From Alphaproteobacteria bacterium (lineage in GTDB: Bacteria > Pseudomonadota > Alphaproteobacteria > CAAHEQ01 > UBA3637), in the NCBI GenBank assembly GCA_015062395.1, contig SUUS01000005.1:1-64000 (forward strand): a DNA stretch of 64,000 nt, in the 5' to 3' direction. Numbering within the stretch: the first letter of the stretch is position 1; every line of letters begins with the position of its first letter. The position numbers and the translations under genes were made by a program. Under the pieces are notes generated by a model, which was not told the DNA's origin, ran no database searches, and saw only the letters and a program-made list of their open reading frames with translations. Below, piece by piece: positions 3 to 55,217 of the stretch.

Positions 3-2162
3 CAAAAATGCACTGAAACGGGGTGTGAAATAGATTATACTCAAGAAGGATGTTCTTCTTCTTCAAGTTCTTCTGGTTCTTCGGGTAGTTCGTCTTCCTC
101 TAGTTCTGGTTCATCTTCTTCCAGCTCAGGCTCTTCAAGCTCAAGTTCGTCTTCATCAAGTAGCTCGTCTTCAAGTAGTTCTTCGAGCAGTAGTTCGTCA
201 TCTTCCAGTTCGAGTTCTTCGTCAAGTTCGAGTAGTAGCAGTTCGTCTAGCTCCTCAAGTTCCAGTTCTTCTTCTTCGAGTTCGAGCAGTAGTAGTTCCA
301 GCTCATCAAGTTCTTCTAGTAGTTCTAGTTCCTCAAGCAGTTCGTCGAGTTCTTCTTCGAGCTCTTCAAGTAGTAGCAGTAGTTCTTCGTCCTCGAGTTC
401 ATCAAGTTCAAGCAGTTCATCGAGCAGTTCTAGTTCTTCTTCGAGTTCCAGTAGCTCGTCTTCAAGCTCTAGCTCATCTTCGAGTTCTTCTTCGTCAAGT
501 TCAAGCTCTTCGAGCTCTTCGAGCTCCAGCAGCAGTTCCAGCTCTTCGAGTAGTTCATCAAGTTCAAGTAGTAGTAGCTCTTCAAGTTCTTCAAGTAGTA
601 GTTCATCTTCGAGCAGTTCTTCTTCATCAAGTAGTAGTAGTTCTTCAAGTTCTTCTGGTGGTCCTTGTGTAGATGATCCAGATAACTATCAATGGACAGA
701 TGATGGACAATGCATAAAATGTCCTGTTATGAATCTTTTAACAGGGAACAGATACAAACTTTGTCAGCTGAATGGTCAATGGGCATGTTGTTGTATCGGA
801 GGTGGAATAGATTGGAATGTCAAACAAGACGGCAGTGGAGAATGCGTGCTGTGTATAGCTCCGAAAATTTTTGATGGATACAACGATTGTGTTTGTCCGC
901 CAGAAAGAGCCTCATGTGGTGCTAGTGGGGGTATGTGCTGTAAGGAAGGTGAATACTGTGTAGATTTTAGTTGTTGCAAACCAGAACAATATTGTACAAA
1001 TAGCGGTTCTAAACAATGTTGTTTACTTGGAGAAACCTGTACAGCTAGCGGATGTTGTGATGAAAATGCAGGTTATGCAAAGTATGATAGTCAGCATCAA
1101 AAAGCTGGATGTTGTCGTTTGGGGACAACCAGTATAATGCCTTCACAAGGATACAGTGATTCTGTTTGCTGTAAACCAGGGGAACAAGCTTTTAGTGGTG
1201 GGGGATCTACTTCTTATTTGGGACGCTCTATCGGTTGTTGTCCAGCCAACATGGATGTTGTCTTTGGTGGCTCTTATAATGAGGCTAGCAAATGTTGTAA
1301 TCCAAACTCTACATATGATAAATGTTGTCAAGGAACAGATACATATTTTAAAGCACCAGACGGAAGATCTGATGGCTGTTGTCCTTCAGGTTCAACAGGT
1401 TATGCAACATATGATAGTCAATATCAAAAAGCTGGTTGCTGTCCTGCGGGGACAACCAGTATAATGCCTTCACAAGGATACAGTGATTCTGTTTGCTGTA
1501 AACCAGGGGAACAAGCTTTTAGTGGTGGGGGATCTACTTCTTATTTGGGACGCTCTATCGGTTGTTGTCCAGCCAACATGGACGTTGTCTTTGGTGGCGC
1601 TTATAATGAGGCTAGCAAATGTTGTAATCCAAACTCTACATATGATAAATGTTGTCAAGGAACAGATACATATTTTAAAGCACCAGACGGAAGATCTGAT
1701 GGTTGTTGTCCTTCAGGTTCAACAGGATATGCAACATATCCAACCCCTGGTTGTTGTCCTGCTGGAAAAGTAAGTATAATGCCAGATACAGGCTACCGTG
1801 ATTCTGTTTGTTGTAATCCTGGTGTTAAAGCATTTAGTAAAGGGGGAACGGTTGGTTGTTGCGCTCCAGGAGAAGTAACCGTAGAATGTGGTGCTTATAA
1901 CGAAGCAACTGCGTGTTGCAGTCCTGAACAAGCTAAAGAAGATGCAAGTAAATGTTGTAACTCGGGGAGCAGTGAACCATCAACGCCAACTAAAGGTTGC
2001 CTTAACGACATAACCTTAAAAACTGGTGCAGTATATAAGGTATGTTGTGAGGGAGGGGCCCCAACTCAAGTATCTGGTTATGGTGGAACTAACATTAACG
2101 AAATGTACAAATGCAATTCGCCTTGCACAGGAAATTGTGTCGCAACGCTGGTTTCACCATAG
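3..2162 (+). CDS. Polyserine, Cys-rich repeat secreted/surface protein (5' end outside window)
   Basis: The reading frame is open from the first complete codon (position 3) to the TAG at 2160-2162, so the N-terminus lies upstream of the window. The visible part starts with a short Cys-containing stretch (codons 3-53). It then enters about 200 consecutive codons (54-656) that are serine apart from four glycines, followed by GGPC and a roughly 500-residue Cys-rich domain. That domain is full of CC pairs and carries two near-identical 109-residue repeats plus a diverged third. The ATG at 729 lies inside the frame and is not the start, because the frame is uninterrupted upstream. The protein looks extracellular: disulfide-rich with a flexible linker. 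No catalytic motif or sorting signal is seen at the C-terminus. A possible relative is the lipoprotein at 54076-55101. Function unknown; a surface or adhesin role would be inference. Confidence 0.85.
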   Translation, partial: QKCTETGCEIDYTQEGCSSSSSSSGSSGSSSSSSSGSSSSSSGSSSSSSSSSSSSSSSSSSSSSSSSSSSSSSSSSSSSSSSSSSSSSSSSSSSSSSSSSSSSSSSSSSSSSSSSSSSSSSSSSSSSSSSSSSSSSSSSSSSSSSSSSSSSSSSSSSSSSSSSSSSSSSSSSSSSSSSSSSSSSSSSSSSSSSSSSSSSSSSSSSSSSSSSSSSSSSSGGPCVDDPDNYQWTDDGQCIKCPVMNLLTGNRYKLCQLNGQWACCCIGGGIDWNVKQDGSGECVLCIAPKIFDGYNDCVCPPERASCGASGGMCCKEGEYCVDFSCCKPEQYCTNSGSKQCCLLGETCTASGCCDENAGYAKYDSQHQKAGCCRLGTTSIMPSQGYSDSVCCKPGEQAFSGGGSTSYLGRSIGCCPANMDVVFGGSYNEASKCCNPNSTYDKCCQGTDTYFKAPDGRSDGCCPSGSTGYATYDSQYQKAGCCPAGTTSIMPSQGYSDSVCCKPGEQAFSGGGSTSYLGRSIGCCPANMDVVFGGAYNEASKCCNPNSTYDKCCQGTDTYFKAPDGRSDGCCPSGSTGYATYPTPGCCPAGKVSIMPDTGYRDSVCCNPGVKAFSKGGTVGCCAPGEVTVECGAYNEATACCSPEQAKEDASKCCNSGSSEPSTPTKGCLNDITLKTGAVYKVCCEGGAPTQVSGYGGTNINEMYKCNSPCTGNCVATLVSP
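54..656 (+). repeat. Polyserine-coding tract, about 201 codons
   Basis: Reading in the frame of the downstream Cys-rich domain, nearly every codon from 54 to 656 is TCT, TCA, TCG, TCC, AGT or AGC. Glycine codons occur only at 75, 84, 108 and 129. All six serine codons are mixed irregularly, so there is no long pure trinucleotide run. That argues for selection on the amino acid rather than simple DNA slippage. Confidence 0.9.
1069..1930 (+). repeat. Tandem 327-bp coding repeats (two near-identical, third diverged)
   Basis: Copy 1 (about 1069-1395) and copy 2 (about 1396-1722) align with an offset of exactly 327 bp (109 codons). For example, GGGGACAACC occurs at 1121 and 1448. Only scattered substitutions separate them. 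A third, shorter and clearly diverged copy covers about 1723-1930. The first two therefore reflect recent duplication or gene conversion. Each unit encodes several CC pairs and an MPS...DSVCC segment. Confidence 0.9.
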
Positions 2163-51828: not shown

Positions 51829-52932
51829 ATGTCAAATAAATTCAAATCAATGTTAGCTGCAGGTACAATTTTAGCAGGTACAGTTTTGGCGCCATCAGCA
51901 AATGCAGCAGAGCAGAAAGATACGCGCAACGGATGGGAACGTTTTGTGCATGGGACAACCGAAATAGTTGATAAGGGAACGCACTATTTAACAGAAGCAG
52001 CGCTTTATCCAGTTCGTTTGGTTGGGACTGCAGTTGATGCAGTTGGCTACGGGGCAGAAAAAGGGCTGGATTGGGTTGGAGATAATGTTCCTGGTGTAAA
52101 ACCTGTGACGGATTTAGTTGGTGATGGGATTCGAACTGCAACTGGTTTGGGTGCTTCAGCATTAGATATAACTACAAATTTAACTCAAAAAGCTGTTAAG
52201 TATCCTATTCATTTGACTGGAAGTGTTGTTGATGCGACAGCAACTGCAACCAGAGATGTTGACGAAGCTGGACGTCGTTTGACTAAAGAGGCTGGGATTT
52301 TAACGTCTAAATTTGTTTCAAATACGATGTTAGCGACGAATGCAATGGCAAATACGACTATTGATTTAACAAAAGATTTATTGCGATCTGGCGTTAAAAG
52401 TGCAGGCGATTTAACTGCGCAAACAGTCGGTGTCTTTGATAAAGAAGCAGGGGCTAATGTTCAACAGAATGTTGATGCTGTAGATGGTGCAACGCGTTTA
52501 CTTAATACAGGGGATACTTTATTGCGTGGTTTTGTATCAGCAGCACCAGGATTGGCCGTAAAAGCTGCGCCTTTGTTGAATGATGATATTCGTGGTGATA
52601 TGGTTGATAAAGTTAAAACTGTAATCAATGAAGTATCGAATGGAAATCCTGATGCCCTTTCAAAAGCGATGGAACATAATGCAGAAGAAATAAAAGAAGG
52701 TATTCAGGGAACAATAGAAAATATAGCTAATAAACCACCAAAAGAAATCGTTTCAACATTAAAAACAACATTGGCTGGTTTAAGTCAAACAATGTCTGAT
52801 ATTGAGCGAAATCAACCAGCACCATCACTTCCAACATTTAATTTAGAAGGTGGTGGGCGTGAAGACGTCAAATCGGTTGTTGATAGTTCCGAAGCCTATC
52901 GTGCCAAATTGAACCAAAATGGGGGACGGTAG
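51829..52932 (+). CDS. Secreted amphipathic-helix protein of unknown function (paralogue 1)
   Basis: 367 residues. A Sec signal peptide ends S-A-N-A-A-E. The mature protein is built of amphipathic helical stretches with recurring Y-P-[VIL]-x-L-x-G-x-x-x-D units (two copies) and many D/T/A/V residues, ending N-G-G-R. It shares extended similarity with the next gene, including G-D-N-V-P-x-x-K-P-V-T-D and D-A-T-A-T-A-T-R. Phasin- or apolipoprotein-like surface helices are suggested by appearance only. No known family recognised. No Cys is present. Confidence 0.8.
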   Translation: MSNKFKSMLAAGTILAGTVLAPSANAAEQKDTRNGWERFVHGTTEIVDKGTHYLTEAALYPVRLVGTAVDAVGYGAEKGLDWVGDNVPGVKPVTDLVGDGIRTATGLGASALDITTNLTQKAVKYPIHLTGSVVDATATATRDVDEAGRRLTKEAGILTSKFVSNTMLATNAMANTTIDLTKDLLRSGVKSAGDLTAQTVGVFDKEAGANVQQNVDAVDGATRLLNTGDTLLRGFVSAAPGLAVKAAPLLNDDIRGDMVDKVKTVINEVSNGNPDALSKAMEHNAEEIKEGIQGTIENIANKPPKEIVSTLKTTLAGLSQTMSDIERNQPAPSLPTFNLEGGGREDVKSVVDSSEAYRAKLNQNGGR

Positions 52933-52990: not shown

Positions 52991-54016
52991 ATGACAGAAA
53001 TCAAACAAGATGATATAAAATCGGAAACAGTATCGAAAGAAGATGAACGTAACGGTGTTGAAAAAGTCGTTCATTCTGCGACACAAATTGTTGATACTGG
53101 GGTTCATTATTTGATGGAAGGTGTTTCCTATCCTTTAAAGTTACTTGGATATGGTTTGAATTGGGGCGATTATGGAGTTCAAAAGGGTTTGAATTTTGTA
53201 GGTGATAATGTTCCTTTTGCGAAACCTGTGACTGATACACTGGGAAGCGTTTCTTATACAGTAAAATCATTGGCAACAGGCGCGTTAGGTCTGACTTCTG
53301 GCGTTTTGAGCAAAACAGTGAAGTATCCAGTTAATTTAGTCGGTTCTATTATCGATGCTACAGCAACGGCTACTCGTTCACCATCAAGAGCTTTGGGTGG
53401 TTTGTTAAAGCAAACGACCTTCCTTACATCTGATTATGCTGCAGATTTGTGTTTTAGTACAGCTGTAAATGGTGGTTTAGTTTTGTTCGATACTCAAAAT
53501 TTGATACGAAATACAGTTAAAAATACAGGAAAAATAGCATCAAATACGGTTTCTGTTTTTGATAAGAATTTATCTGATAAAATAAGCTCTGATGTTGAAG
53601 CTATCGATGGCATGGCACATTTTACAAATATAACAAGTTCTGGAGCAACAGCAGCGATAGCCTCTGTTCCTGGTGTCGTTTTAAATGTTCCGAGTTTTTT
53701 AGAAAAAGTTTTTTCGCAAAATGAAACAGAAGAATCAGCTAAAGCAAAAGATAAAATTTCAGATGAAACCATGGTAGAAGATTTAAAAGAGTTTGGAAAA
53801 GCCTATATTGATACGTTTGGTGCTATAAGGAATAAAGATGCCTCATCTTTAAAGAAGTATTTACAAAAGATGAGTCGTTCTGGAGAAAAAATAGGAAGAA
53901 ACATTTCAGATATGGAACCATCATTACCAGTCATTGAGAAAGAAAGTAAAGAGGAAAAACGTAAAAATGTTTTTACAGATACGCCAAGGCAGATTAAAAA
54001 TTCTGGTGGACGATGA
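52991..54016 (+). CDS. Paralogue 2 of the amphipathic-helix protein, no signal peptide
   Basis: 341 residues. It shares the Y-P-[LV]-x-L-x-G units, G-D-N-V-P-F-A-K-P-V-T-D and D-A-T-A-T-A-T-R with the preceding protein, and again ends in G-G-R. Unlike paralogue 1 it begins with a polar, charged segment and lacks a signal peptide, so it may stay in the cytoplasm or be exported differently. AGAGGATAAA precedes the ATG. The shared promoter and terminator imply a two-gene operon. Confidence 0.8.
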   Translation: MTEIKQDDIKSETVSKEDERNGVEKVVHSATQIVDTGVHYLMEGVSYPLKLLGYGLNWGDYGVQKGLNFVGDNVPFAKPVTDTLGSVSYTVKSLATGALGLTSGVLSKTVKYPVNLVGSIIDATATATRSPSRALGGLLKQTTFLTSDYAADLCFSTAVNGGLVLFDTQNLIRNTVKNTGKIASNTVSVFDKNLSDKISSDVEAIDGMAHFTNITSSGATAAIASVPGVVLNVPSFLEKVFSQNETEESAKAKDKISDETMVEDLKEFGKAYIDTFGAIRNKDASSLKKYLQKMSRSGEKIGRNISDMEPSLPVIEKESKEEKRKNVFTDTPRQIKNSGGR

Positions 54017-54075: not shown

Positions 54076-55101
54076 TTATTTTACCTCTAAACATTCTCCG
54101 TCTAAAGCTTTGTTTCCTTCTGGACAGCAAATGTATTTATTGCCAAAGCCTGTGTTTTTTGTTTCAACAGTTCCTTCTGGACAACATTCAAAGTCATTCC
54201 ATTTTTCGCCAACCCAACGTGCTTGAGATGCATTGTCTGGACAGCAAATCGAATCGCTTCTAGATGGAATAACTGTTGCTTTCATTCCTTCGCCACAACA
54301 TTGGAATTTTTCAGCATTCCAAGCTAAAGAATTTGCTTCAGCAGGACAATAAGCTTGACCTTTACCATTGGGCGCAGTTAATAAAACTTTTCCTTCTTTT
54401 GCTAATTCTGCTTTCGTGACGCAAATACCATCCTTACCGACTTCGTGTTCTGCACAACAAATGTATTTATCTCCGACACCTTCGTTTTTAACTTCGATAG
54501 TTCCTTTTGGACAGCATTCATAGTCAAATCCTTTTTCGCCAATCCAGCGAGCAGAAACAGAACCGACAGGACAACAAATTGAATCTTCTCTAGAAGGAAT
54601 TTCTGTAGCATTTAAACCATAACCACAGCATTTATATTGAACGCCATTCCAAGCTAATGAGTTTGCTTTTTTTGGACAATATGCACTACCTTTGCCATTT
54701 GGTGCTGTCAAATAGGCAAAAGCATCCGTATCGACTGTAGGAGCTTCTTCTTTTTCTTCAACCACTATCTTTTCTTCGACTGGTTCTTCTATGGATTTTT
54801 CAGCTACTTCTGGTTGTGTTTGTTGTATTGGTTCTTCTAATGGAATAAAACCATCTGCTACAACAGAATTTGCCTCTACAATATCATTTGTTGGTGTTGG
54901 GGCAAAATTTTGAGATTCATCGACGCAATAACCATCTTGTCCAACTGTTCCAAATGGACAACAAATGACAGCATCGCCCATGCCAATGTTGTTTGTTTCA
55001 ACAAAGCCCATTGGACAACTAGCTGAATGATTGCTTTGACAGGCTGCTAATGCTGCAAAGCCACAGACACCAGCTAAAAATAATTTGATTTTGGATGACA
55101 T
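54076..55101 (-). CDS. Cys-rich repeat lipoprotein
   Basis: 341 residues. The lipobox is A-L-A-A-C (Cys 21). An acidic Glu/Pro/Val linker (about 65-128) precedes two tandem units (131-240 and 241-341) with a period of 110 residues. Each unit has L-T-A-P-N-G-K-G, Y-C-P, CC, I-P-S-R-x-D-S-I-C-C-P, C-C-P-x-G-T and K-Y-I-C-C. The CC pairs, the P-S...D-S-x-C-C core and the period resemble the polyserine protein at 3-2162, so both may belong to one family. Outer-membrane anchoring is likely; function unknown. Confidence 0.8.
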   Translation of the reverse strand: MSSKIKLFLAGVCGFAALAACQSNHSASCPMGFVETNNIGMGDAVICCPFGTVGQDGYCVDESQNFAPTPTNDIVEANSVVADGFIPLEEPIQQTQPEVAEKSIEEPVEEKIVVEEKEEAPTVDTDAFAYLTAPNGKGSAYCPKKANSLAWNGVQYKCCGYGLNATEIPSREDSICCPVGSVSARWIGEKGFDYECCPKGTIEVKNEGVGDKYICCAEHEVGKDGICVTKAELAKEGKVLLTAPNGKGQAYCPAEANSLAWNAEKFQCCGEGMKATVIPSRSDSICCPDNASQARWVGEKWNDFECCPEGTVETKNTGFGNKYICCPEGNKALDGECLEVK

Positions 55102-55182
55102 TTTAAACTCCTTATTTAAAAAAACGCGTTTTCATATTCGAAGTATAGCGTTGTTTTTATTAACAAAAGTTTAACTCAATAT

Positions 55183-55217
55183 AAAAAAACGCCTCTTTTT
55201 AATAAGGCGTTTTTTTT
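55183..55217. terminator. Terminator after rplS
   Basis: AAAACGCCT / AGGCGTTTT with A and T runs on both sides, 18 bp past the rplS stop on the minus strand. Confidence 0.85.

Follow-up and report, generated by a model that had tools for sequence, protein, structure and literature searches.

Galaxin-type di-cysteine repeat proteins belong to the coral skeletal matrix and have relatives in molluscs and squid. The galaxin repeats are about 30 aa long with two CC pairs each, the galaxin-like members include a separate acidic domain, and the galaxin di-cysteines have been suggested to form vicinal cyclo-cystine loops (PMC2726143). In granulin, the CC pairs run along stacked beta-hairpins to form a disulfide ladder, and natural half-modules occur (PMC4527844). 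Here we analyse a bacterial lipoprotein built from di-cysteine modules, encoded in an alphaproteobacterial window (the whole stretch of 64,000 nucleotides under analysis), and compare it with a second CC-rich protein of the same window and with these animal systems.

The lipoprotein gene and its signals

The lipoprotein gene lies at 54076-55101 on the minus strand and encodes a protein of 341 aa with two di-cysteine modules, as supported by the open reading frame, an orthologue (locus L045) and dN/dS. A ribosome-binding site, AAGGAG, is read directly from the sequence at 55108-55113 (minus strand), 6 nt 5' of the ATG. Between rplS and the lipoprotein gene, a probable intrinsic terminator (AAAAACGCC-loop of 12-GGCGTTTTT) was recognised by eye at 55183-55214 on the minus strand; the pattern scan for terminators allowed loops of up to 8 only, and this 12-nt-loop hairpin is therefore absent from its list. 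Because the probable terminator separates rplS from the gene, the latter is likely its own transcription unit.

The signal peptide covers residues 1-21 (55039-55101, minus strand) and ends in LAA, with LTAC at the corresponding place in the orthologue. It is followed by Cys22, the predicted lipidated residue (55036-55038, minus strand), with Gln at position +2. The lipobox pattern [LVI][ASTVI][GAS]C matches both FAALAAC22 in the lipoprotein and IGALTAC in the orthologue. In Lol sorting, a Gln at +2 after the lipidated Cys predicts an outer-membrane destination, so that the lipoprotein is predicted to be sorted to the outer membrane. With its lipobox LAAC, its AAGGAG site and the purifying selection described below, this is a real gene.

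Module architecture

The mature protein begins with a half-module of the C-CC-C type with 4 Cys (residues 24-60; 54922-55032, minus strand), which matches positions 64-100 of the module HMM with an E-value of 2e-7. An acidic linker of 68 residues follows (residues 61-128; 54718-54921, minus strand), with 19 D/E versus 3 K/R and a pLDDT mostly below 50. Two full modules complete the protein, both defined by the CC layout C-(CC)4-C and the module HMM: module 1 at residues 129-228 (54418-54717, minus strand; pLDDT about 80-89) and module 2 at residues 239-338 (54088-54387, minus strand; pLDDT mostly 84-92). The modules are about 100 aa long and repeat with a period of 110 aa. The CC pairs are found at residue 47 in the half-module, at residues 158, 176, 196 and 215 in module 1 and at residues 268, 286, 306 and 325 in module 2, which places CC pairs within a module 18-20 residues apart.

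The first part of each module is a sub-unit of about 38-40 aa, CP..a.SlaW.G...f.CC.....ipSr.DSiCC. Because the second half, CP..s.SarW.G...dYeCCp.GT...n.g.gdkYICC, is a diverged copy of the first, the module consists of two sub-units in tandem. Over seven modules, the invariant non-cysteine positions fall in KG, CP, AW, PSR-DS, CCP, RW-G, D-ECCP-GT-E--N-G-G-YICC and G-C.

Conservation and distribution

A full orthologue, retaining the half-module, the linker and the two modules, is found at L045 in G001, a congener represented by a yak-rumen alphaproteobacterial metagenome-assembled genome. Between the window lipoprotein and L045, identity is 72% for orthologous modules and 57-63% for paralogous ones, and since the orthologous modules are the closer ones, the module duplication is older than the split of the two species. 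The dN/dS of module 2 is about 0.16, indicating purifying selection. In three genomes of genus g6 (L046-L048), a single module copy, 48-51% identical, forms the C-terminal end of a secreted Sel1-like-repeat protein. In contrast to the lipoprotein, the g6 proteins have a signal peptide without a lipobox, a Sel1-like N-terminal domain and 12 Cys rather than 10 in the module. The alignment-based scan of genome contigs yielded the four loci used here.

The module is known from 5 genomes in two genera of one alphaproteobacterial family. Among 43 genomes of the order in which it was sought, it is absent outside the window genome, G001 and the three g6 genomes. Searching alphaproteobacterial genomes with an HMM of the modules had been proposed in the initial annotation; against 385 sampled alphaproteobacteria, among them a few from the same family, the HMM matched only the window's own genome at an E-value of 1e-4, and the module is confined to the two genera of the one family. 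Single-protein scans of genome and viral contigs gave no confirmed relative of the lipoprotein. Nothing informative was matched in Pfam, NCBIfam or PHROGs, and a PDB sequence search returned chance matches only (E 1.2 with the single sequence and 0.42 with a profile).

Convergent to the lipoprotein gene in the window are two plus-strand genes for paralogous proteins, 51829-52932 and 52991-54016, whose family is unassigned (R-VHGATSIVDTGVHYL...); the first has a signal peptide. In G001, one copy (L019:5430-6539, minus strand) is convergent to the orthologue and is its sole conserved neighbour. An lgt-like gene (prolipoprotein diacylglyceryl transferase, assigned by eye) is found about 3 kb from the orthologue at L019:618-1454, minus strand.

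Relationship to the polyserine protein

At 3-2159 on the plus strand, an open reading frame encodes a polyserine CC-repeat protein whose N-terminus is lost at the contig end. The initial annotation had proposed that the lipoprotein shares with it a CC-pair module with a CCxxG...P-S...DS[IV]CC signature and a period of 109-110 residues. In the lipoprotein the signature reads CCGEGMKATVIPSRSDSICC, where the polyserine protein has CCPAGTTSIMPSQGYSDSVCC, and it is shared beyond what chance gives with the cysteines held fixed. Both periods are as described (110 and 109), but their near equality is rejected as evidence of kinship because the cysteine layouts differ: the polyserine protein has an exact 109-aa repeat with 12 Cys in six CC pairs, and the lipoprotein repeat fills its period with 10 Cys arranged as C-(CC)4-C and a spacer. 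That the two periods nearly agree, at 110 and 109 residues, is a coincidence.

Because Cys-rich proteins give inflated scores, all null shuffles kept the cysteines in place. Aligned by hhalign, the module profile (A1) and the polyserine repeat profile (A2) scored 37.2 over the first 50 columns or so (2-50), a value that none of the 300 shuffled profiles reached (mean 17-18, maximum 35.5). The HMM-HMM comparison that the initial annotation had suggested is therefore significant beyond the cysteine pattern, over those first columns only. With the full module, the best domain in the polyserine protein scored 11.9 bits, which was attained by 2 of 500 pooled and 1 of 500 within-segment shuffles, and the second half of the module gave no significant alignment with the polyserine protein (10.7 bits with a second-half HMM). 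An HMM of the sub-unit (the first 40 residues or so) found 10 matches of at least 16 bits among the order's other CC-rich proteins, versus 0.05 per shuffled set, and none of 40 shuffled sets contained a protein of at least 20 bits. Two of the ten matches are in the polyserine protein, at full-frame residues 351-390 (1053-1172, plus strand; 17.0 bits) and 459-499 (1377-1499, plus strand; 21.3 bits), and the second iteration of this search added a copy at residues 568-604 (1704-1814, plus strand). The proposal of a common module thus holds for the sub-unit, in the HMM and hhalign searches alike, and fails for the whole 110-aa module. These comparisons support a relationship between the two proteins through a two-hairpin sub-unit of about 38-40 aa.

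Carriers of related sub-units

Ahead of related CC repeats, prepilin-like N-termini of the form GRSM[IVL]EM[LI]xVLAxIG... were found in G009, G023, G059 and G061 and in several genes of the window genome. The prepilin reading is based on this motif because the Pfam N_methyl model scored below its cut-off on both tested prepilin-like proteins that gave a match. The first residues of the polyserine protein, QKCTETGCEIDYTQEGCSSSS, nearly repeat a stretch, QKCTENGCEMDYTQEGCSSSS, that lies behind a prepilin-like N-terminus in L057 of the same genome; the missing N-terminus of the polyserine protein is for this reason most likely prepilin-like as well. As had been suggested from the two window proteins, related sub-units are carried on different stalks: the acidic-linker lipoprotein, the secreted Sel1-repeat proteins, and prepilin-like, polyserine-linked and other secreted proteins.

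Several observations accompany these genes. Polyserine/CC genes lie at contig ends across the genome, namely window 3-2159 (plus strand), L057, L010, L013 and L025 (contigs C35, C3, C14 and C19), and their copies share high-identity stretches, which has the look of a multicopy recombining family that breaks the assembly. The window's own genome of 1.36 Mb holds 18 matches to the prepilin-like N-terminus (L055-L072), in several of which nearly identical leaders (LKSNSQADSAFASQRFQ-GRSM) precede differing C-terminal domains; some have EGF-like repeats, such as a 1870-aa open frame on C33. In genus g9, L033:520-2655 (minus strand) encodes a prepilin-like CC-repeat protein with a terminal domain LNWWSAGAWC...LGSRSSGGRAICVK, which recalls the C-type-lectin-like ends of diversity-generating retroelement targets and has no Pfam match at an E-value of 0.1. 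A 981-aa frame at L040/L043 (G001, contig C10) contains ephrin-receptor-like repeats (PF07699, E 3e-12) together with sub-unit copies GSRWNGIQYVCCQAGEV...YICCP at 25 bits.

Link to the Galaxin_repeat family

The iterated sub-unit search, with a null at each step, reached proteins on contigs C14 and C4 of the window genome with the pattern CCPSGQsAYWdGSSAQCCsGtVYk......yaCC. These two proteins independently match the Pfam family Galaxin_repeat (PF24748), the C14 protein at 30.7 bits, above the cut-off, and the C4 protein at 19.7 bits, below it. Matches to PF24748 at an E-value of 0.01 or less occur in 7 of 43 genomes of the order, in 4 of them over the cut-off, and in an evenly drawn sample of the class only two genomes from other families reach an E-value of 0.001, both under the cut-off. 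Neither the lipoprotein nor the polyserine protein nor the A1 members match PF24748 over the cut-off, and G001 has no match; those in the window genome are to genes other than the lipoprotein. The lipoprotein is not filed as a PF24748 member because it does not match the model, and its link through the iterated sub-unit search, an indirect one, makes it probably a distant relative of the galaxin-type di-cysteine repeat proteins, like which it would work. The initial annotation did not recognise the repeat family as described, which is right for the lipoprotein module itself, as it has no Pfam or NCBIfam family, and wrong for the wider kind, since paralogues in the same genome match PF24748 and the kind is known from corals. 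A literature search, which covered few subscription papers, found no paper joining galaxin with pilin, or galaxin-like with alphaproteobacteria and repeat.

Predicted structure and disulfide connectivity

AlphaFold2 predicted all-beta modules in the lipoprotein, whose strands stop at the CC pairs. The modules have a pLDDT of about 80-92 and the linker a low one; the model was built from a 5-sequence alignment with a pTM of 0.37, and the method is weak for disulfide-rich proteins. The polyserine repeat was likewise modelled as all-beta with strands at the CC pairs, at lower confidence and with the same non-significant PDB neighbours, both models being of low alignment depth. Fold searches with the two models against PDB and viral structures gave no significant likeness, and TNF-receptor-like domains topped both lists at E-values above 0.1. 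For a disulfide-rich peptide AlphaFold gave the wrong connectivity (PMC11035057), and because such bonds can be misassigned, we infer the connectivity from the cysteine pattern.

The number of cysteines per unit is always even: 4 in the half-module, 10 in each of the two modules and 12 in the g6 module. Each ladder has a single Cys at both ends, and the half-module has one C where the full module has its first CC. In the g6 module, a VCC pair replaces the single AYC and an extra upstream Cys (DMC) appears alongside, a paired gain that would be expected of two cysteines bonded to each other. The even counts, the single end cysteines and the paired gain in g6 together favour bonding from rung to rung over vicinal disulfides, and would give a ladder as in granulin (PMC4527844). 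DsbA-like oxidoreductases and type II/IV-type (pilus or secretion) ATPases are encoded in the same genome.

Discussion

What, then, may the lipoprotein do? Taken together, the lipid anchor, the Gln at +2 and the stiff modules on a flexible acidic linker suggest a protein for display at the cell surface. Lipidation of Cys22 would anchor it in the outer membrane, and the linker would keep the two stiff modules off the membrane. Each module would comprise two tandem sub-units of about 38-40 aa, each sub-unit a pair of beta-hairpins, and the CC pairs would serve as rungs, with one Cys of a pair bonded to the rung before it and its partner to the rung after, hence the single Cys capping the ends. 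The sub-unit would be part of a galaxin-like di-cysteine repertoire that this lineage also mounts on prepilin-like, polyserine-linked and secreted proteins. Possible ligands are a host or dietary polymer or neighbouring pilin-borne modules, with the conserved IPSR-DS and ARW-G loops as the candidate surface for contact. We give an even chance to this reading as a whole, an outer-membrane lipoprotein with stiff disulfide-ladder modules on a flexible linker and an adhesive or structural display role at the surface.

The main alternative is a lipoprotein that faces the periplasm as a structural or accessory component of the envelope, such as a partner in the docking or assembly of the CC-rich pilin-like proteins. 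Lipoproteins often act as pilotins or docking factors, and the genome contains many prepilin-like genes and pilus-type ATPases. The lipoprotein gene is single-copy and conserved across the genus together with the convergent gene beside it, and the pilin-like genes are multicopy and variable. However, no pilus gene adjoins the lipoprotein gene in the window, and in g6 the module belongs to a Sel1-repeat protein encoded at a different locus, which leaves the periplasmic role unlikely. A metal- or redox-active protein, whose CC pairs would hold metal or be closed as vicinal disulfides, would draw on the cyclo-cystine loops proposed for galaxin (PMC2726143) and on the acidic linker. It is very improbable, as the even cysteine counts, the single end cysteines and the two-Cys gain in g6 fit cross-linked rungs, and no conserved His or Met lies beside the pairs.

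The kinship of the two window proteins has a rival of its own, namely that they merely converged in cysteine spacing with no homology. The full-length module score is indeed matched by 1-7 of 500 Cys-fixed shuffles for the polyserine, C33 and C14 proteins, and the Cys-fixed hhalign nulls climb to a probability of 84. Against convergence, the sub-unit HMM had its ten real matches far beyond the shuffled sets, the hhalign score exceeded all 300 shuffles, and the iterated sub-unit search held against its own null. Convergence was already disfavoured and is quite improbable. Homology through the sub-unit is the preferred reading. The repertoire across the order, on several carriers (lipid, Sel1, prepilin and polyserine), is the more interesting part, and the module itself has no family model. 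Di-cysteine ladder modules have been seen as animal features, as in galaxin and granulin; here they would form a diversified surface repertoire of small-genome uncultured alphaproteobacteria. The module may offer a handle on surface construction in these poorly known bacteria, and the lipoprotein, with two modules and 20 Cys, is a compact testable protein for CC-pair bonding, a question open for galaxins.

Tentatively, and short of calling it probable, we propose that this lineage of uncultured gut alphaproteobacteria uses exchangeable disulfide-ladder (galaxin-like) display modules on lipid anchors, Sel1 scaffolds, prepilin stalks and polyserine linkers for attachment to host or polymer, the pilin-borne copies diversifying by recombination, as a bacterial counterpart of the animal galaxin, granulin and TNFR-type modules. 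The TNF-receptor and follistatin-type Cys-rich domains are also elongated disulfide-stabilised modules and head the fold-search lists without significance; they differ in giving E-values above 0.1, a TM of about 0.1 and no sequence match. Like granulin (PF00396), the lipoprotein has a half-module, and its CC pairs at predicted hairpins would form a disulfide ladder, whereas it has 10-12 Cys over about 100 residues, versus 12 over about 55-60, and longer loops. It has no Pfam match to PF00396 and a spacing other than that of the 12-Cys granulin motif, so that by analogy it would work like granulin and is not a member. With galaxin the lipoprotein shares tandem CC-pair repeats in a Cys-rich secreted protein and an acidic segment comparable to the acidic domain of galaxin-like members (PMC2726143). 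It differs from galaxin in a sub-unit of about 38-40 aa with a CC every 18-20 residues, versus two CC per 30 residues or so, and in being lipid-anchored and bacterial with no sign of a biomineral role. The lipoprotein is a narrowly distributed new form of galaxin-like di-cysteine repeat protein.
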